Source: Methylobacillus arboreus (GTDB lineage: Bacteria; Pseudomonadota; Gammaproteobacteria; Burkholderiales; Methylophilaceae). From it: 64,000 nt of DNA. The DNA is taken from the NCBI RefSeq assembly GCF_020532725.1, contig NZ_JAJAVC010000007.1, positions 136,274 through 200,273 of the forward strand. The letters are read 5' to 3'. The notes below the pieces were generated by a model. That model saw nothing but the letters and a program-made list of their open reading frames with translations, did no database searches and was not told where the DNA came from. This document shows positions 24,332 to 51,673 of the stretch, in pieces (within the stretch, counting starts at the first letter, position 1; the number at the start of each line of letters is the position of its first letter). Made by a program: the position numbers and the translations under genes.

Positions 24332-24383
24332 TGAGAGATGGATGCCGTCCGCATCCAAGTCATTATTTTCAGGAGACTCCAAA

Positions 24384-28709: not shown

Positions 28710-28722
28710 GAGGACAAGCACC

Positions 28723-28983
28723 ATGAAACTACTGACATGCCCAGTGAATGGCACCAGGCCTTTGAGCGAATTTGTGTTTGGCGGCGAGTGCCGCGTGCCT
28801 CCCGCCGCGGATTGCAGTGACAAGGTATGGGCCGATTACGTGCACAACCGTCACGGCGCCCCCGGCATCAAGCAGGAGTGGTGGTACCACGCGCCCAGCG
28901 GCACCTGGTTTATCGCCGAGCGCAATACATTAACCGATCAAGTGATACGTACATTTCTGAAAGGCCAGGAGGGCAAGCAATGA
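28723..28983 (+). CDS. mgdB: N-methylglutamate dehydrogenase subunit MgdB (SoxD-like)
   Basis: 86 residues, similar to the small delta subunit of sarcosine oxidase. The zinc-binding type N terminus LLTCPVNGTRPLSEFVFGGEC, a middle VWADYVHNRHGAPGIKQEWWYH and APSGTWFIAERNT are characteristic. It is a structural subunit. Start at 28723 follows AAGAGGACAAGCACC. The stop overlaps the mgdC ATG by 4 bp. Confidence 0.92.
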   Translation: MKLLTCPVNGTRPLSEFVFGGECRVPPAADCSDKVWADYVHNRHGAPGIKQEWWYHAPSGTWFIAERNTLTDQVIRTFLKGQEGKQ

Positions 28984-32551: not shown

Positions 32552-32574
32552 ATAAATCGGACTCGGAGAGTTAT

Positions 32575-33954: not shown

Positions 33955-33980
33955 AAATTTGGATTCTGAAGGAGAACATC

Positions 33981-34877: not shown

Positions 34878-35557
34878 CATTTGACCTGGAAAAAACCCCG
34901 CTGCGCGAGGTGAACCAGTACCTGCACAGCGATGCTGCCGAGCTTGATGGCAAGACGGTCACCATCACCAACCCAGGCGGCACACACAACATTGCCGTCG
35001 GCCTCAAGGCTGATGTCGATGTGGTGATCGACGGGCACGCAGGCTATTACGCCGCCGGCATGAACCAGGTCGCCAACGTGGTGATCGAGGGCAGCGCCGG
35101 GACCGGCGTGGCCGAGAACATGATGTCCGGCCGCGTGCATGTGAAAGGCTTTGCCTCCAATGCGGCAGGTGCCACTGCACAGGGCGGCCTGCTGGTCATC
35201 GACGGCGATGCGGGTTTGCGCTGCGGCATTTCCATGAAGGGCGTCGATATTGTTGTCGGCGGCTCTGTCGGCAGTTTCTCAGCTTTCATGGCGCAGGCAG
35301 GCAACTTGGTGATCCTGGGCGATGCCGGCGAAGCGCTGGGCGACTCCCTCTACGAAGCCCGCATCTTCGTGCGCGGCAATATCCAGAGCCTGGGGGCCGA
35401 CTGCGAGGTCAAGCCCATGGATGAAGAGGCACGCCAGATACTGGTCAAGCTGTTGAAAGAATCAGGCCATGCCGATGTCGACCCTGACAGCTTCACGCTG
35501 TTGGGCTCCGCCCGCACGCTGTACAACTTCCACGTAGATAACGCAGGAGCCTATTAA
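34865..35557 (+). CDS. mgsB: N-methylglutamate synthase subunit MgsB (GltB C-terminal-like)
   Basis: 230 residues made of the repeated right-handed beta-helix of the glutamate synthase alpha C-terminal domain (GXXG repeats such as GGLLVIDGDAGLRCGISMKG and GNLVILGDAGEALGDSLYEA). It is a scaffold between the amidotransferase and FMN subunits. An AAAGGAG precedes the ATG inside the mgsA end. The next gene starts two bases after its stop. Confidence 0.94.
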   Translation: MEAVTFDLEKTPLREVNQYLHSDAAELDGKTVTITNPGGTHNIAVGLKADVDVVIDGHAGYYAAGMNQVANVVIEGSAGTGVAENMMSGRVHVKGFASNAAGATAQGGLLVIDGDAGLRCGISMKGVDIVVGGSVGSFSAFMAQAGNLVILGDAGEALGDSLYEARIFVRGNIQSLGADCEVKPMDEEARQILVKLLKESGHADVDPDSFTLLGSARTLYNFHVDNAGAY

Positions 35558-35559
35558 TC

Positions 35560-36894
35560 ATGAGCGACGCACCAAAAATCCCGCAAACCGAGCCGCGCTA
35601 CTCCGCGACTTTCGACAAGAACACCGCGTCTGAAATCCGCCGTGCCGCTGCTACGGGTATTTATGACATTCGCGGCGCAGGTGCCAAGCGCAAGCTGCCG
35701 CACTTTGACGACCTCCTGTTCCTTGGCGCCTCCATCAGCCGCTACCCGCTTGAAGGCTACCGTGAAAAATGCGGCACGGACGTGATCCTGGGCAACCGCT
35801 TTGCCAAGAAGCCCATTCACCTGAAAACCCCGGTGACGATTGCCGGCATGAGCTTCGGCGCATTGTCCGGCCCGGCCAAGGAAGCATTGGGCCGTGGCGC
35901 AAGCGCCGTCGGCACCAGCACCACCACCGGCGACGGCGGCATGACGCCGGAAGAGCGCGGACAGTCATCCATCCTGGTCTATCAATATTTGCCTTCCCGC
36001 TATGGCATGAACCCGGACGACCTGCGCAAGGCCGACGCGATTGAAGTGGTGATCGGCCAGGGCGCCAAGCCGGGCGGCGGCGGCATGCTGCTGGGCCAGA
36101 AGATCAGCGACCGCGTCGCCAAGATGCGCTGCCTGCCCAAGGGCGTAGACCAGCGTTCTGCCTGTCGTCACCCTGACTGGACCGGCCCGGACGACCTGGA
36201 AATCAAGATTGCCGAAATCCGCGAGATCACCGATTGGGAGAAACCTATCTACGTCAAGGTCGGCGCGACCCGCCCTTACTTCGACGTAGCGCTGGCCGTG
36301 AAAGCCGGTGCCGACGTCGTGGTGCTGGACGGCATGCAGGGCGGTACCGCAGCGACGCAGGAAGTGTTCATCGAGCACGTGGGCATTCCCATCCTCGCGG
36401 CAATCCGTCCCGCAGTGCAGGCGCTGCAGGATCTGGGCATGCACCGCAAGGTGCAGCTCATCGTCTCCGGTGGCATTCGCAACGGCGCTGATGTGGCTAA
36501 GGCGCTGGCGCTGGGCGCGGATGCCGTGGCAATTGGCACGGCCGCATTGATCGCGCTGGGCGACAACGATCCCCACCTGGAAGAAGAGTACAACAAGCTA
36601 GGCACCACTGCTGGCGCATATGACGATTGGCATGAAGGCAAGGACCCGGCTGGCATCACCACCCAGGATCCTGAGCTGATGAAGCGCCTGGATCCGGTCA
36701 AGGCCGGCCGCCGCCTTGCCAACTACCTCTCGGTGCTGACCATGGAGGCCCAGGTGATTGCGCGCGCCTGCGGCAAGTCGCACCTGCATAACCTGGAGCC
36801 GGAAGACCTGGTTGCGCTTACCTTAGAGGCTTCGGCCATGGCCAAGGTGCCGCTGGCGGGTACCAACTGGATTCCTGGAGTAAGCCAGTTTTAG
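35560..36894 (+). CDS. mgsC: N-methylglutamate synthase subunit MgsC (FMN-binding glutamate synthase type)
   Basis: 444 residues similar to the FMN and synthase domain of glutamate synthase: PVTIAGMSFGALSGPAKEALG, GTSTTTGDGGMTPEERG, QGAKPGGGGMLLGQKI and IVSGGIRNGADVAKALALGADAV. Cysteines that might bind an Fe-S cluster occur around AKMRCLPKGVDQRSACRHP. It is the last gene of the NMG operon. No other gene lies in the following 460 bp, where only an inverted repeat is seen. Confidence 0.94.
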   Translation: MSDAPKIPQTEPRYSATFDKNTASEIRRAAATGIYDIRGAGAKRKLPHFDDLLFLGASISRYPLEGYREKCGTDVILGNRFAKKPIHLKTPVTIAGMSFGALSGPAKEALGRGASAVGTSTTTGDGGMTPEERGQSSILVYQYLPSRYGMNPDDLRKADAIEVVIGQGAKPGGGGMLLGQKISDRVAKMRCLPKGVDQRSACRHPDWTGPDDLEIKIAEIREITDWEKPIYVKVGATRPYFDVALAVKAGADVVVLDGMQGGTAATQEVFIEHVGIPILAAIRPAVQALQDLGMHRKVQLIVSGGIRNGADVAKALALGADAVAIGTAALIALGDNDPHLEEEYNKLGTTAGAYDDWHEGKDPAGITTQDPELMKRLDPVKAGRRLANYLSVLTMEAQVIARACGKSHLHNLEPEDLVALTLEASAMAKVPLAGTNWIPGVSQF

Positions 36895-37357: not shown

Positions 37358-37975
37358 TCAGCTGGATAAAATGCCATCGGCATGGATGATGGCGCGGGCG
37401 ATTTCTTCTATGGTGGTTCGCTTCAGCATCGCTTGCTCGCGCATCACCTTGTAGGCTTCGGTGATGCTGATGTTGCGCGTACGCACCAAGATGGCCTGGG
37501 CGGCGCTGATCTGGTTTGCGGCCTGCAGTTTTTGCTCCAGGCGCTGGTTGCGCTTGGTGAGCGTCTTGATCTCCTGGAAATGATGGATCGCCAGGATCAG
37601 CGTGGCGAGGATGCCGCTGGCATGGATGGGACTTACCAGGATGCCGTGGCTGCCCAGGCTCGTGGCAGTGTCGAGGGTAGTGGGGTTTTCATATTCGACA
37701 ATGCCGATCAGCGGAATGGGGGAGGATGGGCCCAGCCACGCAGGTTTTTTCTTGGCGCTGGCTTCGGCATTGAGCAGGAAAAACACGATATCGGTATTTT
37801 CCGGCAGTTCCGCGAGCGGCGGCCACATGGTGAGGGCCTGGCAACCAATGCGCTGCAATTGCTGCACCAGCGTGTCGCGGTTTTCGTCCTTGGGATGGAA
37901 AATCATGATGCGCGCATTGCGCAGGCCGCGGAACAGGTCCAGCGTAGAGCGCTGGCTTTTGCCGGGGCTAGCCAT
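37358..37975 (-). CDS. amiR: AmiR-type transcription antiterminator (ANTAR domain)
   Basis: 205 residues: an N-terminal receiver-like domain without the acidic phosphorylation set (IMIFHPKDENRDTLVQQLQRIG), a coiled coil (about 130-150, EIKTLTKRNQRLEQKLQ) and a C-terminal ANTAR three-helix RNA-binding domain (AQAILVRTRNISITEAYKVMREQAMLKRTTIEEIARAII). In Pseudomonas, AmiR binds the ami leader RNA and stops termination; AmiC holds it inactive until an amide binds. The same trio is encoded here, with a matching leader upstream of amiE. The start overlaps the amiC stop by 8 bp. Confidence 0.94.
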   Translation of the reverse strand: MASPGKSQRSTLDLFRGLRNARIMIFHPKDENRDTLVQQLQRIGCQALTMWPPLAELPENTDIVFFLLNAEASAKKKPAWLGPSSPIPLIGIVEYENPTTLDTATSLGSHGILVSPIHASGILATLILAIHHFQEIKTLTKRNQRLEQKLQAANQISAAQAILVRTRNISITEAYKVMREQAMLKRTTIEEIARAIIHADGILSS

Positions 37976-39134
37976 ACAGGGCCTCCGGCGGACGCTGCAA
38001 TAGATTCCATTCTTCCCCGGTATGGGTTACCAGATAAGGGTCGGGTTCCACGCCGCTGGGTGCCGATTCGGCAATGATGTCAAAGTTGCCTTCCTGGTTG
38101 ACGCGGCCCAGGCGCGGGTTAAGGCGGGTGTGGTGGTTGGCCGGATTGATCGCGATCTTGCCTTGCAAGGCGTGGTATTCGCGGCCCAACAGGTGCGGCA
38201 GCAATGCATCATAGGCATCGTCGCCCGCTTCGCGCATGGCCTCGGCGAACAGGTGAGTCTGGAAATAGGCGGCTTCCCAGCACATATTGGGTTCGATTTC
38301 CTCACCGAATTGCTGGTGGAAACGGGCCAGGCAGGCCTGGTTGTGCTCGCTCGCAATCGACTGGAAGTAGGGGGCGGACGTAATGTGCCCGGCCGCGATC
38401 CTGAGGCCCATTTCGGCAATCTCCGCCTCGCAGGTGGTCAGGCTCGCAATCGGCGTTTTCGAGGCGTCAATCCCGATGTCGGCATAGGCTTGGTAGAGCA
38501 TGCGCGTGGCTTTGCCCACGACGGTGGAGAACACGAAATCCGGCGCCTTGGCCTTGATGTCCTTGACGATGCCGATAAAGTCCTTTTCGCTCGCATCCAG
38601 CGGCACATAGCGTTCCGCCAGCTTCTTGCCTCCGGGCACCTCCAGGATGAAGTCGCTCATGATGCGGTTGGATTCGTAAGGATAGATGTAATCGCTGCCG
38701 ATCAGGTAGATGCGCGCGCCGTAATGCCGGGTCATGTAATCGGCTAGCTGGGCGCTGTTCTGGTTGGGAGCGGCACCGGTGTAGATCACGTGGGGCGAGA
38801 ATTCGAAGCCCTCGTAAGGCGTGGGGTAGAGCAGCAGCCTGCGCCATTTTTCCACCACGGGAATCACCGCCTTGCGGGTGCTCGACATGTAGCAGCCGAA
38901 GATCACATTGACACAGTCGTCCCGAATCATGCGCTCGGCGAATGCCTGGTATTGCTTGGGAATGCCCTGGGGGTCGTAATAGATCGGCACCAGCTCACGT
39001 CCATTGATGCCGCCTGCCGCATTGATCTCGCCGATGGCGAAGAAGGTGGCAAATGCCTGCGAGCGTTCAATGGTCGCCGTGGTCCCGCTGGTCGAAAACA
39101 AGACGCCAACATGGATAGGATCGGAGTTCGCCAT
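37968..39134 (-). CDS. amiC: AmiC-type amide sensor (negative regulator of AmiR)
   Basis: 388 residues of the periplasmic-binding-protein type I fold (HVGVLFSTSGTTATIERSQ; GGINGRELVPIYYDPQG; VIFGCYMSSTRKAVIPVVEK; YIYPYESNRIMSDF) but without a signal peptide, so cytoplasmic, as AmiC is. It binds short amides and releases AmiR. It sits between amiE and amiR in one minus-strand operon (55 bp after amiE). The lack of a signal separates it from the exported binding protein at 41229-42527. Confidence 0.93.
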   Translation of the reverse strand: MANSDPIHVGVLFSTSGTTATIERSQAFATFFAIGEINAAGGINGRELVPIYYDPQGIPKQYQAFAERMIRDDCVNVIFGCYMSSTRKAVIPVVEKWRRLLLYPTPYEGFEFSPHVIYTGAAPNQNSAQLADYMTRHYGARIYLIGSDYIYPYESNRIMSDFILEVPGGKKLAERYVPLDASEKDFIGIVKDIKAKAPDFVFSTVVGKATRMLYQAYADIGIDASKTPIASLTTCEAEIAEMGLRIAAGHITSAPYFQSIASEHNQACLARFHQQFGEEIEPNMCWEAAYFQTHLFAEAMREAGDDAYDALLPHLLGREYHALQGKIAINPANHHTRLNPRLGRVNQEGNFDIIAESAPSGVEPDPYLVTHTGEEWNLLQRPPEALYG

Positions 39135-39188
39135 TGCTTACTTTCATGCTGCGCCCCGGCTGGGCCGGGGCTGGTTGCTGGACAGGCC

Positions 39189-40208
39189 CTAGTTAGGCAA
39201 CCCCTCGATCGGTGCTTCCTTGGTGCCCAGGGTAGTGCGTGTAAACGACTCTACCACTTCACGCGCGCCTTGTGGATCCTGCACCCATTTTGCATAGAAG
39301 CTGTAAGGGCATTCCGCCACGCCGTGTTCGCCGTCCTTGGAGTTGAGTACGCCGGTGTAGCCGCGGTGCAACAGCTTGAACAGGTGATTCTCGGACTGGC
39401 CATGTTGGCGGAAGTCGCGGATCAGGTGCTTGCTCAATGCGGCATATTGCACGCCGTTTTCCTCTTCGCCGCATTCGCCCAGTGTGCGGCCGTCAAAGCC
39501 GACGATGGCGGAGTGCCCGAAGTAGGAATACACGCCGTCAAAGCCCGCGGCATTGGCGACGGCGACATAGGTGTTGTTGGCGAATGCCATGGCTTTGCTG
39601 ATGAGGATTTGCTGTTCCTTGGCGGGGTACATATAGCCCTGGCAGCGGACGATGAGTTCAGCGCCCTTCATCGCGCAATCACGCCAGATTTCCGGGTAGT
39701 TGCCGTCATCACAGATGATCAGGCTGACCTTCAGTCCCTTGGGCCCCTCGCTGACAAAGGTTTCCTTGCCGGGATACCAGCCCTCGATCGGCACCCATGG
39801 CATGATCTTGCGGTATTTCTGCACAATCTCGCCCTGGTCGTTCATCAGGATTAATGTGTTGTAGGGTGCCTTGTTCGGGTGTTCCTCGTGCTGTTCGCCG
39901 GTGAGCGAGAATACGCCCCAGACCTTGGCCTTGCGGCAGGCCTCGGCAAAAATCGCAGTTTCCGGGCCGGGTATGGTGGTGGCGTTGTCGTACATCTCCT
40001 GGCCGTCGTACATGATGCCGTGCGTGCTGTATTCGGGAAAGATCACCAGGTCCATGCCTGGCAGTCCGGCCTTCATGTTGACCACCATGTCCGCGATCTT
40101 CTTGCAGTTGTCGAGAATCTCGGCCTTTGTGTGCAGGCGCGGCATCTTGTAATTGACTACTGCGACGCCGACGGTATCGTTACTGCTGGAAATATCACCA
40201 TGTATCAT
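39189..40208 (-). CDS. amiE: Aliphatic amidase AmiE
   Basis: 339 residues of the nitrilase superfamily, cytoplasmic, hydrolysing short amides to acid and ammonium. The catalytic set is visible: Glu in VIFPEYS (about residue 59), Lys in YRKIMPWVP (about 134) and Cys in [12 protein letters not shown] (about 166). The sequence [20 protein letters not shown] is almost that of Pseudomonas AmiE, whose known substrates include acetamide, propionamide and formamide. The start at 40208 is set by AAGGAGCAAGAAA; a longer frame to 40256 adds an unlikely tail. Formamide use would suit a methylotroph. Expression is controlled by the leader at 40271-40379. Confidence 0.95.
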
Positions 40209-40270
40209 TTTCTTGCTCCTTGAGTAAATTGATTCGTAAAAATCCAGGCTTCCCACGCTAGCGACAGGCG

Positions 40271-40562: not shown

Positions 40563-40988
40563 TTACTTGCGCAGTTTCTCGATGTGATTGTAGAAACGTG
40601 CCGGATCAAACTGTTTCAACCCGGGATGTTCATTGGCGCCTTGAATCCCTGCCAGGCGGGCTGAGTCTGGCAGCGTCAGCTCGTTGGAAAGGTTTAGGTG
40701 AGGGTATGTCCCCCGAATGTCGGGATGAATCTCCGCCGCCACGATGATGTCGCCATACATCACCAATGCCCCACCCCATGCGCGTATCAGGCCGCGTTGG
40801 CTGACTGGAACCTCGCGCACTCCAGCCGTCTTGATTTGCGCGTCCAGCCAGGCATAAGCGATTCTGATGCAATCGTTGTTCTGATGCACGGGAACAAAGC
40901 CCGCGTAATTTGCCCTTGCCTTGGCAAGTGCAATGGTTTCGTCCGATAGCATGGTTTGTTCTTTTTTTTCGATGGCCCATTCTGCCAT
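40563..40988 (-). CDS. Small protein of unknown function
   Basis: Up to 141 residues; the start is uncertain (40988, or 40952 giving MLSDETIALAKARANYAGF). It reads as a folded, probably cytoplasmic protein without signal peptide or membrane helix (IRIAYAWLDAQIKTAG, GGALVMYGDIIVAAEIHPDI, YPHLNLSNELTLPDSARL). I do not recognise the family. It sits between the amidase operon and the divergent amide-transport/DMFase operon, so a role in amide metabolism is possible. It does not resemble the DMFase small subunit. Confidence 0.7.
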   Translation of the reverse strand: MAEWAIEKKEQTMLSDETIALAKARANYAGFVPVHQNNDCIRIAYAWLDAQIKTAGVREVPVSQRGLIRAWGGALVMYGDIIVAAEIHPDIRGTYPHLNLSNELTLPDSARLAGIQGANEHPGLKQFDPARFYNHIEKLRK

Positions 40989-41228: not shown

Positions 41229-42527
41229 ATGGATACGAATTTTGAGCGCAGGAATATCATGAAGGTTTTGGCAGCGGCTTCTGCCGCCGCTGCAGCCCCT
41301 CTCAGCACGCTTGCCGCTGCGGCTGATGGCAGTCCGCCGAAGAAACCCTCCGGCAAGCCTATCGTACTTGGCCTGACTATTTCGACAACGGCAGCGGCTG
41401 GGGTTGCGGACCATGCCGACCATATGAATGGCTCGATTCTCGCGCAGGAAGAGATCAATGCCAATGGCGGGATTCTCGGCCGTCCGTTGGAGCTGCGGCC
41501 GATTGATGTCGACCTCCTGTCGGCAGAAAGCTGCCAAGCCTCTGTCCGCAAGCTGGTGGACTTGAAAGTGCATGCGATCAGCTCGCCTTTCCTGTTTGTG
41601 CCAATTCCTGCAATGGATGCTTCGGCCAATTACAAGTGTCCTTATGTCAATGGCAATACCCAGCGTGCGGCGACTGATCTGGTCGCCAAGTATCCCGAAA
41701 AGTACAACCACATCTTCCAGATGGATCCTTCCGAGGTGTTCTACGGGGAGACCTTTCCGGTGTTTCTTGAAAGCCTGGAAGCCAGTGGCAGCTGGAAGCC
41801 GAAGAACAACAAGGTGCATATCGTTCAGGAGCAGATTGCCTATTGTCAAACCATCTCTCGTTCTTGCCAGGAGGCGCTCAAGAAGAGTCGTTTCGAGCTC
41901 GCCAAGGTGACGGATATCCAGTATCCGGTGCAGGACTGGGGCAGCGTGATCCGGGAGATCAAGAAGACGGGCGCCGGTACGGTGATGATGGATCACTGGG
42001 TGGCTGCCGAGTATGCCGCATTCTGTAAACAGTTCCGGGCAAACCCGCTCAAGGGGACGTTGATTTACTTGCAATATGGTCCGTCGCAGCCTGAGTTTCT
42101 GGAGCTGACAGGGAGCGCGGCTGAAGGCTTTGTCTGGAGTACGGTGCTGGGGGTTTACGCGGATAAGAAAGGGCAGGCTTTCCGCGGCAAGTATCAGAAG
42201 CGCTTCCCGGCCAAGACGATGGGGCTGTGCTACACGGGCGGCGGCTACGACATCGTCAATATGCTGGCCCAGGCCTGGAATGCCGTGGGCTCTCCCGATG
42301 ATTTCAAGGCCGTGAACGACTATCTCCGCAAGACCGCATTCCGGGGCGTCTGCGGCTGGTCCTACATGGGGAATGCTAGGCAGGAAGCGCGGCATTTCCC
42401 GGTTGGCACACAGAGTATCGATAGCGGCATGAGCCAGCTTTACTTCCAGGTCCAGGGCGGCAAACACAAGATTATTTACCCGCCGCAACTCAAGGAAGTC
42501 GATTTCAAGCCCGCCCCCTGGATGTAA
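41229..42527 (+). CDS. Tat-type exported substrate-binding protein of an amide/urea-like ABC transporter
   Basis: 432 residues with an N-terminal twin-arginine-like signal (FERRNIMKVLAAASAAAAAP) and the type I periplasmic-binding fold of the leucine/urea/amide group (GLTISTTAAAGVADHADH; QEEINANGGILGRPLEL). It would capture an amide, possibly N,N-dimethylformamide, in the periplasm. It heads an operon of two ATPases, two permeases, a porin and the DMFase large subunit, comparable to the fmd short-chain amide transport genes of Methylophilus. The Shine-Dalgarno lies within a hairpin stem. Confidence 0.88.
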   Translation: MDTNFERRNIMKVLAAASAAAAAPLSTLAAAADGSPPKKPSGKPIVLGLTISTTAAAGVADHADHMNGSILAQEEINANGGILGRPLELRPIDVDLLSAESCQASVRKLVDLKVHAISSPFLFVPIPAMDASANYKCPYVNGNTQRAATDLVAKYPEKYNHIFQMDPSEVFYGETFPVFLESLEASGSWKPKNNKVHIVQEQIAYCQTISRSCQEALKKSRFELAKVTDIQYPVQDWGSVIREIKKTGAGTVMMDHWVAAEYAAFCKQFRANPLKGTLIYLQYGPSQPEFLELTGSAAEGFVWSTVLGVYADKKGQAFRGKYQKRFPAKTMGLCYTGGGYDIVNMLAQAWNAVGSPDDFKAVNDYLRKTAFRGVCGWSYMGNARQEARHFPVGTQSIDSGMSQLYFQVQGGKHKIIYPPQLKEVDFKPAPWM

Positions 42528-42565
42528 CCCAGGCTTCCATACAACGATTCTATTGGGTTTGGGTG

Positions 42566-43282
42566 ATGACAGTTCTATTTGAAGGCAGGGATATCAAGCT
42601 GGAGCTCGGCGGACGGGAGATCCTGAAAGGCATTTCGCTTTCCGTGGAAACGGGCGAAGTGATGGGGATCATAGGCCCGAATGGCGCGGGAAAAACCAGC
42701 CTGTTTGAAGTATTGAGCGGCCGGATTTTCCCCAAGAGCGGCCAGGTGTTGTTCAAGGGGCAGGACGTGACATCCATGCCGCTTTTCAAGCGGGCGCGGC
42801 TGGGGATCGGGCGCACGTACCAGACGCCGCTGGTTCCGGATGAGCTCCGGGTCGGTGAAGTATTGAAGGCAGCACGCCAGGCTTATCTCCCATATCTCAC
42901 CAGCCATGATGCCGAGTGGGGCCTGGATCTGGTGAATCTGCAGGTGGATTTTGACCAGTATGCCCGGGAGCTGGAAACGCTGAACCGGCGCAAATTGCTA
43001 TTGGCATGCCTGCTTATGAGGCGCCCGCCGCTGTTGCTGCTGGATGAGCCGGCGGCAGGCCTGATCAATTCCGAAGTGGATGAGCTGGATCACCTGATAC
43101 GCCTGCTTTCGAAGGAAATGGGCGTCTCCATCATCATTGTGGAGCACCGCATGGAGTTGCTGGAAATGATTGCGGACCGGGTCATGGTGATGGATGCGGG
43201 AGAGCCGATTGCCGAGGGCTCCCTGGCCAGCGTCCTGGCAAATCCGCAAGTGCATGCAGCCTATTTCGAGAACGTCGAGTAA
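42566..43282 (+). CDS. ABC transporter ATPase, LivG-like, with degenerate signature motif
   Basis: 238 residues: Walker A GPNGAGKTS, Q-loop GRTYQTP, Walker B LLLLDEPAAGL and switch His in IIVEHRMELL. The ABC signature, normally LSxGQ, reads TLNRRKLLLA here, so one composite ATP site should be weak or dead. Its partner (43330-44055) has a normal LSGGE. Start is ATG 42566 (or GTG 42563); the Shine-Dalgarno is weak. It is the ATPase of the amide-type transporter. Confidence 0.88.
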   Translation: MTVLFEGRDIKLELGGREILKGISLSVETGEVMGIIGPNGAGKTSLFEVLSGRIFPKSGQVLFKGQDVTSMPLFKRARLGIGRTYQTPLVPDELRVGEVLKAARQAYLPYLTSHDAEWGLDLVNLQVDFDQYARELETLNRRKLLLACLLMRRPPLLLLDEPAAGLINSEVDELDHLIRLLSKEMGVSIIIVEHRMELLEMIADRVMVMDAGEPIAEGSLASVLANPQVHAAYFENVE

Positions 43283-43329
43283 AGACATGGGGAAGATGAT
43301 GAGGGATGGCATTCAATGGGGGATCTGCT

Positions 43330-44055
43330 GTGAGTGAGCGAAGAGAAATCCTCAATATCAATGGGCTTTCTGCCGGGTGGGGGCCTATGCGTGTCATTCA
43401 TGACCTGGATCTGGTTGTTTACGCCGGTGAGCGCATCGGCATCGTGGGCTTGAACGGCCATGGCAAATCCACCCTGTTTTCCGCGATTGCGGGCATGACG
43501 GACTGGCAGCGCGGCTCCATCAAGCTTAACGGCAAGGAAGTAGGGGGAACCCGCAGCCAGGGCCCCGGCCGCTATACGCACCTGGTGGTGAGGCAGGGGT
43601 TAGCCCTGATGCCGCAGGGCGATGAGATTTTTACAGGCCTGACGGTGGAGGAGCATCTGGATAGCGGCGCTTTTACTCCTGCCGCATGGCGTGATCGCAA
43701 GGCGCGCAAGGAAAAGATCCTGGAGATATTTCCCCCGCTGCGGAAGTTGATGAGTACTCCGGTCGGGCGCTTGTCAGGCGGCGAGCGGCGCATGGTGTCG
43801 CTAGGGCGGGGCTTGATGTCGGATGCCTCACTTCTGTTGGTGGACGAACCCTCACTGGGGCTGGCGCCGAAGATTGGCAAGGGCGTCATGAAGGCGTTGA
43901 TGGAAATCCAGTTAGGCAATTCCGCGATGATCATTGCGGAGCAGAACATGGCCTTGCTTGAGGGGCAGGTGGATCGGGTGATTGGCATGCATGTGGGGAA
44001 ACTGAAAGGCGAGGCATCCACTTCGCTTGCCCATGAATCAAGAAGGGAGGTATAG
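43330..44055 (+). CDS. ABC transporter ATPase, LivF-like
   Basis: 241 residues: Walker A GLNGHGKST, signature RLSGGERRMVSLGR, Walker B LLLVDEPSLGLAP, switch His replaced by Gln in IIAEQNMALLE, as is common in LivF. GTG 43330 is preferred because GGGGGA lies six bases before it; ATG 43306 is also in frame but has poor spacing. It forms a dimer with the preceding ATPase. The last codons run close to the LivH-type permease start (44060). Confidence 0.9.
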   Translation: MSERREILNINGLSAGWGPMRVIHDLDLVVYAGERIGIVGLNGHGKSTLFSAIAGMTDWQRGSIKLNGKEVGGTRSQGPGRYTHLVVRQGLALMPQGDEIFTGLTVEEHLDSGAFTPAAWRDRKARKEKILEIFPPLRKLMSTPVGRLSGGERRMVSLGRGLMSDASLLLVDEPSLGLAPKIGKGVMKALMEIQLGNSAMIIAEQNMALLEGQVDRVIGMHVGKLKGEASTSLAHESRREV

Positions 44056-44059
44056 GGCC

Positions 44060-44947
44060 ATGGATATTGATATCGGTTTTGTTGCCATCACGGCGGTCAC
44101 TCTGGCCTGTATATACGGCACCCTGGCAATCGGGGTGTCGATCACCTGGTCCAGCCTCGGCCTGATCAATATGAGTTACGGGTTTACCTTTGCGACATCA
44201 GGTTATGGGGCCTGGCTGGTCAGTGAATATATTTCCTCATCGGGGCCGGTCGTGATTCTGGGAGGAATCCTCACCGGTGCGCTGGTCGGCGTGCTGGTAT
44301 GTGCCGTGGCCTTCATCCCCATCCACGATAAACCCAACTTCACGGTGCGCGGGCTGATTGCATCGCTGGCGTTGAGCCTGATCGGCACACAGGCATTGCT
44401 TTATTTCTTTGGGCCGCAATCGAAAACGCTGCCTCCATTGTTTGGGGACTGGGAGCTTGAGCTCGGCGAGGTGGTGCTGACTGCCGACAAGGGCGGGGCG
44501 ATCCTGACCTCCATCCTGATGCTCACCCTGGCTTTGTGGTGGATGCGTTCCAGCCGTCGCGGGCTTGAAATCCGGGCCATGATGATGAATCCGCATGCTG
44601 CCTCGCTGGTGGGAATCGGTGTCCGCCGTACTGGGTTCTATGTCATGGCCTTGACCGGGGGGCTTGCCGGCCTGGCATCCGTGTTGCTGTCACAGACTTA
44701 CTTTGTCAGCCCTTTTTCCGGTGTCACGCCTTTGATCAAGGGATTGAGCGTGGCCTTGTGCGGCGGGCTGGGCAGTGTCGGGGGAGCGATGATTGCCGCC
44801 GTCATGATTGGCGTCAATGAGGCGCTGACGGCCGACATCCTCGGCGGGCAATACATCCTGATTACGCAGTTCCTGCTGATCATCTTGGTCCTCATTATCC
44901 GTCCGCGCGGTATCGCCGGCATTCTCGATAAACAACGCGAGGCGTAA
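44060..44947 (+). CDS. ABC transporter permease, LivH-like
   Basis: 295 residues with about eight membrane helices of the branched-chain/urea permease family: ACIYGTLAIGVSITWSSLGLINMSYG near the N terminus, VRGLIASLALSLIGTQ, GLEIRAMMMNPHAASLVGIGVRRTGF and GGLGSVGGAMIAAVMIGVNE. GGGAGGTATAGGGCC precedes the ATG 44060. It is directly followed (two bases) by the second permease. Confidence 0.92.
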   Translation: MDIDIGFVAITAVTLACIYGTLAIGVSITWSSLGLINMSYGFTFATSGYGAWLVSEYISSSGPVVILGGILTGALVGVLVCAVAFIPIHDKPNFTVRGLIASLALSLIGTQALLYFFGPQSKTLPPLFGDWELELGEVVLTADKGGAILTSILMLTLALWWMRSSRRGLEIRAMMMNPHAASLVGIGVRRTGFYVMALTGGLAGLASVLLSQTYFVSPFSGVTPLIKGLSVALCGGLGSVGGAMIAAVMIGVNEALTADILGGQYILITQFLLIILVLIIRPRGIAGILDKQREA

Positions 44948-44949: not shown

Positions 44950-46587
44950 ATGGCAAATCTCTGGAAAAATCCCATCGCCAACTGGGGCGTCAAGGAAGAG
45001 GTGGACAATGCGCCGACCATTCCATGGACCTCTCCCATCAAGCCCTGGATTGAGACGGTCAAGGCGAAACAGAAGCTGTATAAGGTAGGGCGCCTGCGCT
45101 ACTACTATAAATTCCCCGGACACGGGGCCAGGACCTGGCACCGGTGGCGCTATCCCTTCACGCGCCGGCGTATCCTGAATATTCGCGGCGAGTACAACGC
45201 CAAGAGCCTGCGCCGGGAAAAGACCATTCTTGACCGACGCCCGGTGTACTGGGTGCTGAGTTTCCTCGCCATGCTGATGGCACCCTTGTTCATGCCGGTC
45301 AGTTTTGAAAGCACATTGCTCAATGCGGGCGCGGTGTTCTTTATTTATGCCGCCATTAACTTGTGCTGGACATTGGTGATCGGTACGGCAGGCATTTTCT
45401 CGCTGGCCTCCATGGCCATCGTCGGGGCAGGTGCCTATGGCGCTGCATATCTATCCCTCACACATGGACTGCCGTGGTGGTCACTGCCGATGGTGGGGTC
45501 TGTGATTGGCCTTGTCTTCGGCATCCTGATCGCATTGCCGGCAACGCGGCTGGAAGGTTTTTATTACGCGCTGCTCACTTTGGGGCTGGTCGAGCTGTGC
45601 CGGGTGTATGTGATCCAGTCGCGCACTTTCGGCTCCGCAACCGGCGGCGTCTATGGAGCGGACAGTTATTTGCCTGACGGCATCAGCGAACTCAGCGAAC
45701 TGACCATCAGCTACTACGTGTGCTTTGTCGTCATGTTGGTGGTGCTGTTCATGTTCCGTTTCATTCAAGGCAAGCGCCTGGGCCGCATCCTGCGCATGGC
45801 GCCTGAAAAGCGCGAGGCGTTTGCCGAAGCGACAGGTGTGAACTACCGCTGGGCGCGTATCCAGGTCTTCATCATTACTTCAGTCGTATTGGGCGCGCTG
45901 GGCGGGGTATACGCCAGCCATTTCCACGGCGCGTCTCCTTCGCTGTTTTCCATGGATGCGGTCCTGCTCGGACTGGCGATGCTGGTGATTGGGGGAATCG
46001 GGCGCTCTGAAGGGGCCGTGTTCGGAACATTGGTAGTGGTGATCATCGACAAGGTCTTTATCGAATGGGGGCCACTGCGATTGATCCTCATCGGCCTGAT
46101 CATGCTGCTGGTGGTGTTATTCCTGAAAGGCGGGGTTTTCGGGATCAAGCAGCAGTTTCGCGCCTGGCGCAACAAGAAGAAAAGTGAAAACCGTTCAACT
46201 CGTGCAGAAAAAGGTGGGGAAATGTTACCTGAAGAAGCTACAGAAACACATGACAAGGACCAGATATTCATGCGCCGCTTTGACAAGATGCAGCGCGACT
46301 ACCTGAAGACGCTGGTGACTGAGGAAATCATTGAAGAGCACAAGCGCAGCCCGCTGGGGCAGCACAGCGAACCACTGGAGCGCCTGCTCACTTATTTCCG
46401 CAGGCAACCGCAAAGCGACAAATACGCCATCGTGGCAATCGAGCTCTACAAGTCCTACCGCATCATTGCGATGTCAGGGCAGCGTGGAGTGCCGCCCCGC
46501 GTGGTGGAAGACAAGATCTATACATCAGAAACAGAAGCCTATCACGCTGTGTTCATGCGTCGTGTACAGGACTTATTGGAGAGTTAA
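44950..46587 (+). CDS. LivM-like permease fused to a DMFase small-subunit-like domain
   Basis: 545 residues, well above the usual 300-430 of LivM. An N-terminal basic cytosolic extension (about 1-95, rich in Arg/Lys/Tyr/Trp) is followed by about nine helices of LivM type (about 97-400; GTAGIFSLASMAIVGAGAYG; FYYALLTLGLVELCRVYV; VIGGIGRSEGAVFGTLVVV). A polar linker (401-440) leads to a C-terminal domain (about 441-545). From memory, EEIIEEHKRSPLGQH, LLTYFRRQPQSDKY and EAYHAVFMRRVQDLL align with the DMFase small subunit of Alcaligenes/Paracoccus. No separate small-subunit gene is seen, though the large subunit gene lies 1.3 kb downstream. An internal ATG (codon 425) may also make the domain alone. 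No frameshift is needed. Confidence 0.78.
   Translation: MANLWKNPIANWGVKEEVDNAPTIPWTSPIKPWIETVKAKQKLYKVGRLRYYYKFPGHGARTWHRWRYPFTRRRILNIRGEYNAKSLRREKTILDRRPVYWVLSFLAMLMAPLFMPVSFESTLLNAGAVFFIYAAINLCWTLVIGTAGIFSLASMAIVGAGAYGAAYLSLTHGLPWWSLPMVGSVIGLVFGILIALPATRLEGFYYALLTLGLVELCRVYVIQSRTFGSATGGVYGADSYLPDGISELSELTISYYVCFVVMLVVLFMFRFIQGKRLGRILRMAPEKREAFAEATGVNYRWARIQVFIITSVVLGALGGVYASHFHGASPSLFSMDAVLLGLAMLVIGGIGRSEGAVFGTLVVVIIDKVFIEWGPLRLILIGLIMLLVVLFLKGGVFGIKQQFRAWRNKKKSENRSTRAEKGGEMLPEEATETHDKDQIFMRRFDKMQRDYLKTLVTEEIIEEHKRSPLGQHSEPLERLLTYFRRQPQSDKYAIVAIELYKSYRIIAMSGQRGVPPRVVEDKIYTSETEAYHAVFMRRVQDLLES
46222..46587 (+). other. Possible internal start giving a free DMFase small-subunit-like protein
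   Basis: ATG at 46222 is in frame within the permease gene and preceded by AAGGTGGGGA (46211-46220). The product would be 121 residues, close to the roughly 130 of known DMFase small subunits. This would let one gene make both the fused and the free forms. It is a prediction from sequence only. Confidence 0.5.
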
Positions 46588-46640
46588 TGCCTAAAACAAA
46601 ATCTGCGAATCAACCACGTTAATTTTTTAAGGATTTTGTG

Positions 46641-47789
46641 ATGAAGAACAGGCTTAGAAACAACCTTTTACCATCCATGATGCTGGCCTGTAGTGTGGGC
46701 CTGGCTTCCACTGCGCAAGCAGGCGGGACCATCAATTTTGGTGAAGACAAATGGGTGTCGCTGGGATTTGGCATACGTACAGCATTTACCAGTACGGAGG
46801 ATGCTGCACCTAATGAACATTCCAGAAGCAAGGATTTTGATCTGGATATTGCCCGTATTTATCTATCGGCATCCTTGAATCAATACATCAAGGGAACCGT
46901 GACCCTGGACAAAATGGGGGAAGACTCACTCAAGGTCATTGATGCATACGGGCGCCTGGAGTTCATGCCGGAATTCAACATCTGGTTTGGGCTGCTGCTG
47001 CCGCCTTCCGACCGCGTCAATATGGATGGGCATTTCTTCATGAACGGCTGGAGCTTCCCTGGCGTGGTCTCGCAATACCAGAACAAGCAAACAGGGCGTG
47101 ATAACGGCATCTTGTTCTGGGGGAAGCTGCTGGACAAGCGGCTGGTGTATTCCGCCGGCATCTATGAAGGCAACCAGGCTTCAGCATTCGCGGGCAACAA
47201 TGCACTGGACCCCAACCGCCGTGACAGCCTTATGTATGCAGGACGCCTGCAATATGACTTCTGGGAGGCTGACCTGGACCCAGGGTTCTACACCAGCAGC
47301 GTCTATTTCGGCAAGGACGTACTTTCCCTCGGGCTTTCCGGCCGTTACCAGAAGGATGCTGTCGGCAGTGTGTTCGCCAAGGATGATTACCTGGGCTACA
47401 ACGTGGATTTCCTGCTGGAAAAGGTATTGCCCGGCGGTGTGCTGGATATCGAGGCGGCGGCATACCGATATGACTTCGATAACGATGCGGTGCTGGCGGG
47501 AGCGGATATCAATGGCATTAGCCGGGTGCAGGCAGGCAAGGCCTACCTTGGCGTCGTGTCCTGGATGTTTCCCCAGACAGTGGGATGGGGGAAGTTCCAG
47601 CCTTACACACGCTATCAGAAGTTTTCTGCCGACGGAAATGCCAGCTTGGATGTCAGGGAATACGACATCGGCCTGAACTACATCATCGACGGCCACAACG
47701 CACGTATCAGCGGTGTTTACACCAAAAACAAGACGGAAAATCAGGATAGCTACGACAAGTTTGTCGTTGGCCTTCAGCTGCAATTCTAA
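46641..47789 (+). CDS. Outer-membrane porin, FmdC-like
   Basis: 382 residues with a signal peptide (cleavage near ASTAQA-GG) and alternating beta strands ending in a terminal Phe (VVGLQLQF), as in outer-membrane barrels. It resembles phosphate-selective-type porins (LDIARIYLSASLNQYIKGTV; FGLLLPPSDRVNMDG). A porin accompanies the amide transporter genes of Methylophilus (fmdC), so this one likely lets the amide through the outer membrane. ATG 46641 is preferred over GTG 46638. Confidence 0.85.
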   Translation: MKNRLRNNLLPSMMLACSVGLASTAQAGGTINFGEDKWVSLGFGIRTAFTSTEDAAPNEHSRSKDFDLDIARIYLSASLNQYIKGTVTLDKMGEDSLKVIDAYGRLEFMPEFNIWFGLLLPPSDRVNMDGHFFMNGWSFPGVVSQYQNKQTGRDNGILFWGKLLDKRLVYSAGIYEGNQASAFAGNNALDPNRRDSLMYAGRLQYDFWEADLDPGFYTSSVYFGKDVLSLGLSGRYQKDAVGSVFAKDDYLGYNVDFLLEKVLPGGVLDIEAAAYRYDFDNDAVLAGADINGISRVQAGKAYLGVVSWMFPQTVGWGKFQPYTRYQKFSADGNASLDVREYDIGLNYIIDGHNARISGVYTKNKTENQDSYDKFVVGLQLQF

Positions 47790-47871
47790 CTACCCAGCCT
47801 GGGGTCATCGATGATGGTTCCAGGCTGCATGGTTGGCGGGTTTAAACGCTTTTTTCAGTCAGGAAATATGT

Positions 47872-50205
47872 ATGTCTCAAATCAAGATATTCGGCTATAC
47901 CGACAAAATCTCAGTTAAGCCTGGTGACGATATCGGATTCCATGTGAGTGTTGATGGTACGAAAAAAGTTGCTGCGCAATTGGTCCGTCTGATTCATGGT
48001 GACGGTCATCCGGATGGGCCCGGTTTCATTGAGCAAGAAATGCCTTGCCCTGTGAATGGCGAATGGGATGTGCAAAAGCAGTTTACCCAGGTGGGGTCAT
48101 TCCTTAAGGTTGCCGATCCGGGTAATAAACTGGCACACAACGGAAGCTTTACGCTCTATGCCTATATCTGGCCGACGCTTCCTGACGTCGGCTTGAGGCA
48201 GGCACTGCTGGGGCGCTGGGATTGTTACAACAACCAGGGTTATTGTCTTGGTATCAATAAACAGGGGCTGCTGGAATTCTGGCTTGGCGATGGCAAAGAA
48301 GTGGATTATGTCGCAGCGGAAGTGCCTCTTGTTGCTAAGATGTGGTACTTCGTAGCGGTGAGCTATGATGCTTCGACCGGCAGGGCAACGTTGTATCAGG
48401 AAAGCGTTGCCAACCGCTATAACAGCCTGCTCGGCAAGGTCTCCCCGCTGGATTACCGTTCGCATGTGCGGGAAACCATGCGCTTCAAGGCCAACAATAT
48501 CCCGGAAGTTCCCTTCCTCATGGCGGGCTCCCAGGACTGGCACGAACTCAGGGGACATTTTGTCAGCCAGGCCTATTGCGGGAAAATTGACCGTCCCGGT
48601 ATGTATGGGCGGGCGCTTTCACGTGAAGAGCTGGACCAGCTCAAGTCAGGTAAACCGCCATCCCCAGATGGATTGCTTGCCCACTGGGATACCACCGCAG
48701 GCTATACCGACAATGGCATTGGGGACAAGGTCGTGGATGTGTCCGGCAATGATTTGCATGCGTACGGTTATAACCGGCCGGTACGCGCGCAGACTGGCTG
48801 GAACTGGAACGGCCGCAATGACAGCTTCCGGCTGGCGCCGCAGGAATATGGCGGGGTTGAGTTCCATGCCGATGCCATGATCGACTGCAACTGGAAACAA
48901 ACCAAGAAGTTACGCATTCCCGATGATTTGCGCAGTGGGGTGTATGCCATCCGTTTGCGTGCGGACAACAGCAAACAGACAACGCAGGAACTGGATGAAG
49001 AGTACGTCGTGTTCTTTGTGCGCGCGAAACAGCCCAAGAGTGCGCTGGCATTGCTGATTCCCACTGGCAGTTATCTCGCCTATGCCAATGAGCACTTGAG
49101 TTTTGACGCCCAAATCATTCAGCCCATGAGCGGGCAGCCGCCTATCGTCTCGGCAGTTGATATCGAAATGTACCAGAATCCCGAATTCGGCCTCTCGACC
49201 TATGACAGCTACATGGATGGCGCAGGGGTTTGCTTCAGTTCCTATCACCGTCCCATCGTCAATATGCGGCCCAAGTTCCGGATATCCAGCATGGGCTCAA
49301 CTTGGCAGTTCCCTGCCGATTTATCGATAGTCGGCTGGCTGGAGCACATGAAGTATGACTATGAAGTCCTCACTGAGGAAGACATCCACTTGGAAGGCCT
49401 GTCTGCCATGGCGCCCTACAAATGCATCATGACGGGCACCCATCCTGAATATATCTCGGAACGCATTCTTGATGCGCATGAAGATTTTGTCGAGCAGGGT
49501 GGCCGTCTCATTTACATGGGAGGCAATGGCTATTACTGGAATGTGGCGTATCGCGATGATGAACCATGGGTCATGGAAGTGAGGAAACTGGATTCAGGCA
49601 TGCGTGCCTGGGCAGCCAGGCCCGGCGAGCATTATTTGCAGACGACCGGCCAGAAAAGCGGCATCTGGAAAAATCTTGGCCGGGCTCCGCAAAAACTGCT
49701 GGGTGTTGGATTCATTGGCGAAGGTTTTGAAACCGGTCGTCCATTCCGGCGCATGCCGGACAGCTACCACAGGACGGTATCCTGGATTACAGAAGGGATA
49801 GAAGGCGAAATCCTGGGGGACTTCGGCCTGGCACATGGCGGTGCTGCAGGTGTGGAGCTTGACCGCTACGACCTGAGCCTGGGTACGCCGCCACATGCCA
49901 AGATCATTGCCTCATCGGGCGGCCATACAGACAATTACTGCCTGTCGACGGAAGAGTTGTTGTATGCTCACCCTGGCGTGGGCGGCACCCAGGACTACAG
50001 GATCAGGGCGGATATCGTGTTTTTCACCGCACCCAACCACGGCGGCGTATTCTCGACTGGCTCCATCGCGTTCGGCCAGGCCTTGCCCGCCTATAATTTT
50101 GACAACAATATCTCCAAGCTCCTGGCCAATGTGGTCAATGCCTTCATCAAGCCGGGGCCGCTTCCCGGAGGCCATTGGATATCCAACGAAAAACAATGGC
50201 GCTGA
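47872..50205 (+). CDS. dmfA2: N,N-dimethylformamidase large (catalytic) subunit
   Basis: 777 residues, cytoplasmic (no signal), similar to the DMFase beta subunit of about 760. The N-terminal part has a LamG/concanavalin-like jelly roll (about 70-265, SFTLYAYIWPTLPDVG; MWYFVAVSYDASTGRATLYQ). The C-terminal part includes LSTYDSYMDGAGVCFSS, GTHPEYISERILDAHEDF and GGRLIYMGGNGYYWNVAY. The known enzyme has a mononuclear iron bound by two tyrosines and a glutamate; plausible equivalents are Tyr401 or Tyr404, Tyr444 and Glu526. It would hydrolyse N,N-dimethylformamide to formate and dimethylamine. AGGAAATATGT precedes the ATG 47872. A terminator follows. Confidence 0.9.
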   Translation: MSQIKIFGYTDKISVKPGDDIGFHVSVDGTKKVAAQLVRLIHGDGHPDGPGFIEQEMPCPVNGEWDVQKQFTQVGSFLKVADPGNKLAHNGSFTLYAYIWPTLPDVGLRQALLGRWDCYNNQGYCLGINKQGLLEFWLGDGKEVDYVAAEVPLVAKMWYFVAVSYDASTGRATLYQESVANRYNSLLGKVSPLDYRSHVRETMRFKANNIPEVPFLMAGSQDWHELRGHFVSQAYCGKIDRPGMYGRALSREELDQLKSGKPPSPDGLLAHWDTTAGYTDNGIGDKVVDVSGNDLHAYGYNRPVRAQTGWNWNGRNDSFRLAPQEYGGVEFHADAMIDCNWKQTKKLRIPDDLRSGVYAIRLRADNSKQTTQELDEEYVVFFVRAKQPKSALALLIPTGSYLAYANEHLSFDAQIIQPMSGQPPIVSAVDIEMYQNPEFGLSTYDSYMDGAGVCFSSYHRPIVNMRPKFRISSMGSTWQFPADLSIVGWLEHMKYDYEVLTEEDIHLEGLSAMAPYKCIMTGTHPEYISERILDAHEDFVEQGGRLIYMGGNGYYWNVAYRDDEPWVMEVRKLDSGMRAWAARPGEHYLQTTGQKSGIWKNLGRAPQKLLGVGFIGEGFETGRPFRRMPDSYHRTVSWITEGIEGEILGDFGLAHGGAAGVELDRYDLSLGTPPHAKIIASSGGHTDNYCLSTEELLYAHPGVGGTQDYRIRADIVFFTAPNHGGVFSTGSIAFGQALPAYNFDNNISKLLANVVNAFIKPGPLPGGHWISNEKQWR

Positions 50206-50569: not shown

Positions 50570-51673
50570 ATGAGCCGTAGCGTTGAGGCATTCAGTAAAG
50601 TATTGCTCAAGTTGCATGATATCGCCGAGTTTGCACCTATTGACCGCTATCAGGAGCTTGCGTTGGACGCCGTGCAGGAAATTCTGCCTTTTGATACGGC
50701 ATGGTGGGGCATCATGTCGCCAAACGAAGTGAGTTTCCGCTTGCATGGTTCCCATTTGCACAATTTGCCGGATTCTTTCGTCCCCATGTGGGAGGAGCTC
50801 AAATATGATGATGCCCTGGCAAAAGCGGTAGAGGTCAAGCCTGCCCAGACCGTCTATTTCGACCAACCTGCCTTTGACGAAGCGCCTGGCCTGGCAACAC
50901 TAATGGGCGAACATGCTGTCACCCAGGCTTTCTGTACTTCGCACTACCTGCCTTCGGAAAACGCTTTTGTCTTCTTGTCCTTGTACCGCGAGGATGGTTC
51001 TCCGCGGTTCAATATGAAAGAGTGCCTTATCAATAAGTATCTGATGCCCCATCTCTGCGCATTCTGGGAAAGCAATAGAATGCGCTACAGCGAGCAATAC
51101 AAGGGGAAATTGAATGACGCTTCAACGTATCTGGCAATTGTCGACCGGCAATACCAGATTTTTGATGCGGATACCGCTTTTTTTGACGTCCTGCGGCTTG
51201 AATGGCCTACCCTTAACAGCACTACGCTGCCGTTGGGCTTTGTCACTAAAATAAACCGCTCTGAAAAAAGCGGGGAACTCAAGCTTTCCAAGATCATTGC
51301 TCATTACGAGTTTATTGGTGACTTTTGCATCCTGGCTATCAGAGAAAGGCAGCGAATAGACTTGCTTACCAAGCGTGAACTCATGGTTGCCAACGCCTTC
51401 TCTACCGGTGCAAGTTATAAGGAAATTGCCAGGTCGGCCAACCTTTCCCCGACCACAATTCGGTATTACCTGCGTGTCATTTACGAGAAGCTGGATGTGA
51501 ACGACAAGGCGGAAATGGCGGCTATCATATGTAATACCAGCTTGTCGGCATCACAGAAAACCTGGATACAATCCTATCGGGTGAACAATATCCTGGCGAG
51601 TAATGTTCCCAGCAAGCAAGGCAATGGTAAACAAGAGCCAGGTCTATGCCTGGCTCTTGAAGAGGTGGCTTAA
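50570..51673 (+). CDS. LuxR-type transcriptional regulator, likely of the DMFase operon
   Basis: 367 residues. The N-terminal two thirds (about 1-260) form an unrecognised, GAF-like sensory region. The C-terminal LuxR HTH (about 265-325) reads LTKRELMVANAFSTGASYKEIARSANLS and TIRYYLRVIYEKLDV. DMFase gene clusters elsewhere include a LuxR-type gene (dmfR), and this gene lies directly after dmfA2, so it is the best candidate to control it. AAGGAGTGCTAAGCC precedes the ATG. It overlaps the stop of the convergent YegP-like gene by 4 bp. Confidence 0.85.
   Translation: MSRSVEAFSKVLLKLHDIAEFAPIDRYQELALDAVQEILPFDTAWWGIMSPNEVSFRLHGSHLHNLPDSFVPMWEELKYDDALAKAVEVKPAQTVYFDQPAFDEAPGLATLMGEHAVTQAFCTSHYLPSENAFVFLSLYREDGSPRFNMKECLINKYLMPHLCAFWESNRMRYSEQYKGKLNDASTYLAIVDRQYQIFDADTAFFDVLRLEWPTLNSTTLPLGFVTKINRSEKSGELKLSKIIAHYEFIGDFCILAIRERQRIDLLTKRELMVANAFSTGASYKEIARSANLSPTTIRYYLRVIYEKLDVNDKAEMAAIICNTSLSASQKTWIQSYRVNNILASNVPSKQGNGKQEPGLCLALEEVA

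Follow-up and report, generated by a model that had tools for sequence, protein, structure and literature searches.

How does a membrane permease come to end in a subunit of a hydrolytic enzyme, and is that subunit made only as part of the permease? Both questions are raised by a gene of Methylobacillus arboreus that lies in a stretch of 64,000 nucleotides (contig NZ_JAJAVC010000007.1, positions 136,274 to 200,273), called the window here and numbered from its first letter. The gene, at 44950-46587 on the forward strand, is a single open frame of 545 amino acids in which a LivM-like permease of an ATP-binding cassette (ABC) importer is followed by a domain resembling the small (alpha) subunit of N,N-dimethylformamidase (DMFase). 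An earlier note on this DNA had described the fusion and had suggested that the enzyme may dock on its own importer and hydrolyse the amide on entry, or that the gene makes both fused and free subunits. Its observation is confirmed here, and its interpretation is partly supported: in the best explanation, to which we assign a probability of about 0.74 on the basis of sequence comparisons and a structural model, the operon would import and hydrolyse an amide, with one gene supplying a tethered and a free alpha subunit.

A LivM-type permease with a DmfA1-like domain

The fusion is an ABC permease of the LIV type by its PF02653 domain (Table 1) and by its operon, which includes a binding protein, a second permease and two ATPases; the earlier description of a LivM-like permease with extra C-terminal residues is thereby borne out. 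By curated cut-offs it is neither UrtC (53.7 bits against TIGR03408, cut-off 296.2) nor LivM (65.3 bits against NF008450, cut-off 366). The small-subunit part is 121 residues long when counted from an internal ATG (the earlier note had put the extra part at about 105 residues) and matches the DMFase small subunit 6lvb_B in a phmmer search (E 4.5e-12, 49.4 bits, residues 11-118 of 121), the next-best match having an E of only 0.78. Its match to P. aminophilus dmfA1 is 34.5%.

An AlphaFold2 model of the fusion, built from 33 fusions, has a mean predicted local distance difference test score (pLDDT) of 76.8, with values of 72-89 in the blocks of the alpha part. It comprises a permease core, a low-confidence hinge (residues 416-422) and a C-terminal domain of four helices (436-455, 458-466, 474-485 and 527-544) and two strands (490-498 and 502-509). 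The modelled tail has the small-subunit fold given in PMC7686228, which combines two strands with four helices, the N- and C-terminal ones being long. The top Foldseek matches are 6lvv_B and 6lvb_B (TM score 0.78-0.79 by target), and VIA aligns 6lvb_B with model residues 431-545 (Z 12.7, 113 residues, 2.4 A), while residues 65-392 of the model match the permease of the ABC importer BtuCD (1l7v_A, Z 13.6). The phmmer, Foldseek and VIA matches rule out chance similarity; the significant similarity to DmfA1 on which the earlier note's reading depended is present, and the C-terminal domain is supported as a DmfA1 homologue both in sequence and in predicted fold. A sequencing error or frameshift joining two genes, which the earlier note had also considered, is ruled out: there are 57 distinct fusions (those identical over the last 150 residues counted once), and the frame is open in a same-genus genome.

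The large-subunit gene, which the earlier note had placed in the same operon, is indeed there, with its ATG at 47872 and with one gene between it and the fusion. Its product is assigned to DmfA2 by homology and by its aligned residues: the Fe ligands Y399, Y440 and E521 of the Paracoccus enzyme align with Y405, Y445 and E527, and H519 and N547 with H525 and N553 (counted by hand on a query that began one codon early, at 47869, so that the numbers are one less from the ATG; the matches are unaffected). PMC7686228 describes the roles of this Fe site, made of two tyrosines and one glutamate, and of the catalytic histidine. It also reports that the Paracoccus large subunit is inactive without the small subunit, and recombinant DmfA2 made without the tail may be inactive likewise. 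With the window's alpha as query, the M. arboreus genome (17 contigs, completeness 100) yields no second alpha at E up to 10, neither in the operon, where the earlier note had seen none, nor elsewhere, where it had allowed for a separate dmfA1. Because the genome has one alpha match and one DMFA2_C match, the tail or its product is the sole alpha candidate found for this DmfA2.

We also weighed whether the tail is a regulatory domain of the transporter, sensing for example the amide or the DmfA2 level to gate import, rather than an enzyme subunit. Such C-terminal domains are known on ABC importers, and loci that have a free alpha still carry the tail on the permease. We nevertheless regard a regulatory tail as highly improbable: no other alpha was found for DmfA2 in its own genome, the tail retains the residues that never vary among alphas, fused or free, and every one of the 53 fusions with enough downstream sequence is followed by dmfA2 (the other four of the 57, L024, L094, L037 and L051, have 0-136 bases of it).

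The internal start across the fusion family

By sequence, the fusion is conserved in Hyphomicrobiales and Burkholderiales, and two actinobacterial metagenome-assembled genomes contain distant relatives. As a query, the alpha domain matched 2 of 61 genomes of close relatives (M. arboreus included), 8 of 399 in its order, 52 of 397 in the order of Hansschlegelia and 5 of 398 in the phylum, as well as 35 loci in a species collection and 42 plasmid records; among the 52, 15 were read as fusion holders, and the rest have stand-alone, mostly distant alphas. The fusion is present in one of five other genomes of the genus that were searched. About 20 near-identical plasmid matches of Agrobacterium and Rhizobium were excluded from the sample, and L039 and L080 were not counted as fusions, their cut permease scoring 74.7 bits, below the 80-bit threshold. 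Viral carriage was rejected, since no relative was confirmed in viral contigs with the query used. All annotated fusions that we inspected are named 'branched-chain amino acid ABC transporter permease', and it is probably through this name that the fusion has been overlooked, in part because Pfam and NCBIfam scans report no model for the C-terminal 121 residues. The earlier note's remark that no case has been described holds for the open-licence literature, in which we found no account of the fusion (papers outside it may contain one); the notion of a single curious case does not survive the 57 distinct fusions.

We sorted the fusions by what follows them: class B (n = 35, not actinobacterial) has dmfA2 and no separate alpha in the operon; class aB (n = 11) has a separate alpha and then dmfA2; class BaB (n = 5) has dmfA2, a separate alpha and a second dmfA2; the actinobacterial class (n = 2) has dmfA2, and four loci are of unknown class. 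In one class B locus, on plasmid pMDW2 of Aminobacter sp. MDW-2 (L052), two consecutive dmfA2 genes follow the fusion, and AAAGGAGG and an ATG stand at the linker. In all 35 class B loci a start codon stands behind a Shine-Dalgarno (SD)-like site after the linker that joins permease and alpha: an ATG directly after the linker in 25, and a codon one place further in 10 (4 ATG, 4 GTG, 2 TTG). All 11 class aB loci are without an ATG at this site, three having GTG or TTG instead. Of the loci of unknown class, L024 has ATG and L094 GTC-ATG, while L037 and L051 have no start.

The position is singular within the gene. When 520 alignment columns were scanned for a start codon at the column or the next, behind an SD-like site of -7 kcal/mol or stronger, column 425 was the only one at which all 35 class B loci qualified, and the best column outside the linker reached 3 of 35; two of the 11 class aB loci qualified at column 425. 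The predicted free product is 120-122 residues long, similar to stand-alone alphas of 119 (coding sequence 7986-8345 of L056) and 121 residues (7935-8300 of L057). A DMFase small subunit is normally a separate polypeptide of about 15 kDa; in the window it is encoded within the permease frame, from which the conserved internal start could yield a free form of 121 residues. Five genomes (G442, G444, G445, G447 and G450) hold one class B copy together with at least one aB or BaB copy, and there the class B copy has the start codon in 5/5 and the stronger SD-like site in 4/5, the exception being G442 (-7.1 versus -7.5); of the other copies, L032 and L034 keep ATG and L044 has TTG.

Further evidence comes from the codons of the linker. 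The peptide EKGGE at its end is nearly invariant among fusions outside Actinobacteria, so that other conserved columns of these sequences, having the same ancestry and codon usage, can serve as a reference for its codons. In class B, 89% of loci have AAA at Lys421, which ranks first of eight conserved lysine columns (mean 25%, next 43%); Gly422 and Gly423 are GGA in 49% and 29%, first and second of 37 conserved glycine columns (mean 9%, next 17%), and GGC makes up just 6% at Gly422 (mean 64%). In class aB, by contrast, Lys421 is AAA in 18% and Gly422 is GGC in 11/11; in class BaB, AAA is absent and Gly422 is GGC in 5/5. GGA is used at neither glycine in any of the 16 loci with an adjacent separate alpha (0/11 aB, 0/5 BaB), although the peptide is retained. 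By computation, the 35 of 35 starts in class B, the codon ranks and the decay beside a free alpha gene show that the internal start and its SD codons are under selection across the family; start codon and SD-like site appear to be kept beyond what the protein needs, as in a functional in-frame internal start.

In the window, the in-frame ATG at 46222 pointed out in the earlier note is present and is preceded by GCAGAAAAAGGTGGGGAA. The site reads AAAGGTGGGG AA ATG, with a predicted -7.7 kcal/mol versus -5.9 at the permease's own start and -4.3 at that of dmfA2, a strength that is reached by 6 of 198 internal in-frame ATGs in the 25 listed genes of the window (this one included). Its SD is moderate and no better than synonymous recodings of the same peptide (p 0.47), so the conserved ATG and the kinship with the codon-selected loci, not its SD alone, carry the case for M. 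arboreus. From these we infer that internal initiation occurs and that both products are made in this organism, and the comparison of the 57 fusions favours the earlier suggestion of fused and free subunits from one gene.

Several other observations weigh against such dual production. The linker peptide itself encodes G-rich RNA, and only 11 of 35 class B loci beat the synonymous SD null at 0.05 (0/11 and 0/5 in the other classes); this locus-by-locus null being weak, we place the argument on the column ranks and the class contrast instead (a Mann-Whitney value of 5.5e-6 counts related loci as if they were independent, and we do not read it as a probability). The ATG is retained in 4 of 5 BaB loci, one being without a start, and the losses of start and SD rest on about two lineages rather than 16 independent events. 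Many fusion-only genomes have other alphas elsewhere, mostly distant ones. Finally, the two actinobacterial fusions have no SD-like site, no internal start and no free alpha beside them, from which it follows that a free alpha is not always needed.

These actinobacterial loci speak for a fusion that acts alone, its tail being the alpha, all enzyme being tethered and the internal ATG and SD-like codons going unused; one of the two genomes (G456) has no other alpha match, and the null result for the window's own SD points the same way. We consider this unlikely, because all 35 class B loci keep the start codon despite its one-codon shift of place, AAA-GGA is selected for according to the codon ranks, and loci with an adjacent free alpha gene show decay of the site. 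A programmed frameshift at the AAAGGAGG site was rejected as well, since there is no class-specific stop: in either class most loci have a +1 stop about 31-34 codons on, and the -1 stop varies.

A proposed pair of tethered and free alpha subunits

In the explanation that we favour, the alpha of an N,N-dimethylformamidase-type enzyme would be encoded solely as the C-terminal domain of a LivM permease. Translation from 44950 would give the permease with its alpha tail behind a basic linker, presumably cytoplasmic given its excess of basic over acidic residues (Table 1); the tethered alpha would bind DmfA2 and keep the enzyme at the inner opening of the importer. A second start at 46222 would give a free alpha of 121 residues for a soluble alpha2beta2 enzyme. 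The conserved internal start makes the production of both forms likely; recruitment of DmfA2 by the tethered alpha, and with it the docking of the enzyme on its importer that the earlier note had suggested, is plausible. There is one LivM per transporter, which would give one tethered alpha, so that an enzyme with two alphas would need a second, free one. By extension, to which we would give even odds, the permease would act as a socket for the enzyme at its cytoplasmic exit and the internal start would meter the free alpha that completes the alpha2beta2 enzyme and supplies a soluble pool, the two tasks having been split after duplication in two lineages. The substrate would be a small N-methylated formamide, DMF or N-methylformamide, whose amine would feed the methylamine genes of the window. 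The Paracoccus enzyme accepts DMF, formamide, N-methylformamide and N-ethylformamide, with the best catalytic efficiency on N-methylformamide, according to PMC7686228.

It is also conceivable that only the free alpha matters, with a soluble alpha2beta2 enzyme, a fusion that is a tolerated read-through of overlapping genes and a tail without a role. The internal start is conserved, stand-alone alphas function in Paracoccus, and an unfused LivM-alpha-dmfA2 operon exists, all of which would fit. Yet the frame is fused in 57 loci, including the 16 with an adjacent separate alpha, where the tail would not be needed; the peptide of the linker hardly varies; and the permease has an N-terminal extension that is tied to the fusion. 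This basic extension of about 95 residues precedes the membrane part. A query with residues 1-103 matched 26 plasmid records, all of them also records of the fusion, and 13 of 397 Hyphomicrobiales genomes, 12 of which hold the fusion; the thirteenth match is marginal (E 9.5e-4, one stop inside). The extension may offer a second contact for the enzyme or the ATPases. A tail without a role is, on this evidence, decidedly improbable.

How the fusion arose may be indicated by genomes in which LivM and alpha are separate neighbours, 4 nt apart and overlapping by 11 nt (G667, with L093 and L150, and G682, with L095). The L150 operon runs from the binding protein through two ATPases, LivH, LivM and alpha to dmfA2. 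Loss of one stop codon in such an operon would leave the ribosome site of the alpha inside the fusion, and the fusion could have arisen in this way. The LivM proteins of the unfused operons are distant from that of the window (36-37 bits), and LivM and alpha may have come together independently there.

In a tree of 55 fusions (L036 and L116 being too short), class aB is a single clade (100/99). A second group (99/98) comprises the BaB loci together with the class B locus L052 and the unclassified L037, and class B is otherwise spread over the remainder. The alpha tree has few columns and its forks are weak; in it, the free aB alphas group with the fused aB alphas (93), and the free BaB alphas are nested in the fused class B/BaB clade (99), where they pair with no particular fused copy. 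The simplest reading of these trees would be two separate duplications of the fused alpha into a gene of its own, each followed by decay of the internal SD and of the start, the latter more fully in aB. One class aB fusion (L042) groups with copies from Alphaproteobacteria although its contig bears the name Oceanobacillus (Bacillota), which may reflect contamination or transfer.

The system shares features with several known ones. Like the Paracoccus DmfA1/DmfA2 pair (6lvb; plasmid pAMI2), it has homologous subunits, the same alpha fold, aligned Fe and catalytic residues and an adjoining LuxR-type regulator; in pAMI2, however, the alpha is a separate gene directly before dmfA2, not a LivM tail with a nested start, and the 11.7 kb fetched contain no annotated ABC importer. 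The LivHMGF and UrtABCDE importers likewise have a binding protein, two ATPases and two PF02653 permeases in one operon, but the fusion scores far below the LivM, UrtB, UrtC and LivH cut-offs and carries the N-terminal extension and an enzyme subunit. A short-chain amide ABC importer is known in FmdDEF of Methylophilus. Long and short CheA, IF2 and ClpB are dual-product genes with in-frame internal starts; as in our proposal, one frame has two starts and a nested C-terminal product, whereas here the products would be part of a membrane transporter and a soluble enzyme subunit. In Helicobacter, urease is held at the urea channel UreI, a hydrolase kept, as we propose here, at the channel that admits its substrate; that contact is non-covalent, whereas the subunit here is covalently part of the permease.

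That importers are physically coupled to enzymes using up their cargo is a frequent proposal; hard-wired examples are rare. The present link is covalent, and the natural variants, in which the internal start is kept or the functions are split after duplication, make the idea directly testable. An enzyme subunit nested in a transporter gene is not named by routine annotation, and genome searches for the degradation of DMF or N-methylamides that rely on a separate dmfA1 would miss the fused alpha.

The operon and other genes of the window

The features of the locus are collected in Table 1. Running in one direction are the genes for the binding protein, two ATPases, LivH, the fusion, a porin-like protein, DmfA2 and a LuxR-type regulator. 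The LivH query began one codon late, which did not affect its match.

Table 1. Features of the fusion gene and its operon, in coordinates of the window.
Feature	Position	Strand	Remarks
Periplasmic binding protein of the importer	41229..42527	+	PF13458 4.2e-27
First ABC ATPase	42563..43282	+	PF00005 7.3e-23; GTG start as listed, start uncertain
Second ABC ATPase	43306..44055	+	PF00005 1.8e-26
LivH-type permease	44060..44947	+	PF02653 1.5e-26 (searched from 44063)
LivM permease fused to DMFase alpha subunit	44950..46587	+	545 aa; sequence, model and fold matches
N-terminal extension, residues 1-95	44950..45234	+	Occurs almost only with the fusion
Membrane domain, residues 125-389	45322..46116	+	PF02653 8e-26
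Linker, residues 397-424, ending in EKGGE	46138..46221	+	9 basic, 3 acidic residues
SD-like site AAAGGTGGGG	46210..46219	+	-7.7 kcal/mol; AAAGGAGG in many relatives
Predicted nested alpha-subunit frame	46222..46587	+	121 aa from internal ATG
Porin-like outer membrane protein, between fusion and dmfA2	46638..47789	+	PF07396 0.006, NF040900 1.9e-19, both below curated cut-offs
DMFase large subunit DmfA2	47872..50205	+	PF20254 2.3e-86; 6lvb_A 2.6e-182
LuxR-type regulator beside the operon	50570..51673	+	GerE 2e-11

The gap that holds the porin-like gene recurs in a same-genus genome (G004; 1281 and 1282 nt between fusion and dmfA2). In the other fusions with context, dmfA2 or a free alpha follows the fusion closely.

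The searches also brought up alphas outside the fusion family. A distant stand-alone family (about 28-41% to the window's alpha; L012-L016, L096, L098-L108, L110-L112) occurs in Hyphomicrobiales and some Burkholderiales, each member with a dmfA2-like gene in the stretch fetched. L050, considered as another kind of fusion, was read as an open-frame artefact over a stand-alone alpha. An archaeal stand-alone alpha on plasmid 2 of Halalkalicoccus jeotgali (L055) is annotated 'inner-membrane translocator'; no permease part was detected in it, and the name was perhaps carried over from a fusion. In Rhodococcus sp. USK13 (L057), a stand-alone alpha and dmfA2 adjoin a gene for an AmiS/UreI-family transporter, possibly another amide importer paired with a DMFase-type enzyme.

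Beyond the operon, the window looks like a methylated-amine island. It encodes a protein resembling the alpha of a haem-dependent oxidative N-demethylase (18968-20011; PF11927, 4e-73), a protein above the cut-off for a trimethylamine N-oxide permease (24309-26078; NF053774) and, at 27468-36894, relatives of sarcosine oxidase subunits, a type III glutamine synthetase relative and parts of glutamate synthase, which we read as a probable N-methylglutamate (methylamine) pathway. A 141-residue open reading frame without a Pfam or NCBIfam match (40563-40988, reverse strand) lies between the DMFase operon and what appears to be a second amide system, divergent from it, with AmiR-like, AmiC/UrtA-like and aliphatic amidase genes (37358-40256, reverse strand; the amidase above the NF009802 cut-off). 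The N-demethylase, trimethylamine N-oxide permease, N-methylglutamate and AmiR-AmiC-AmiE-like genes would all fit a source of dimethylamine or methylamine.

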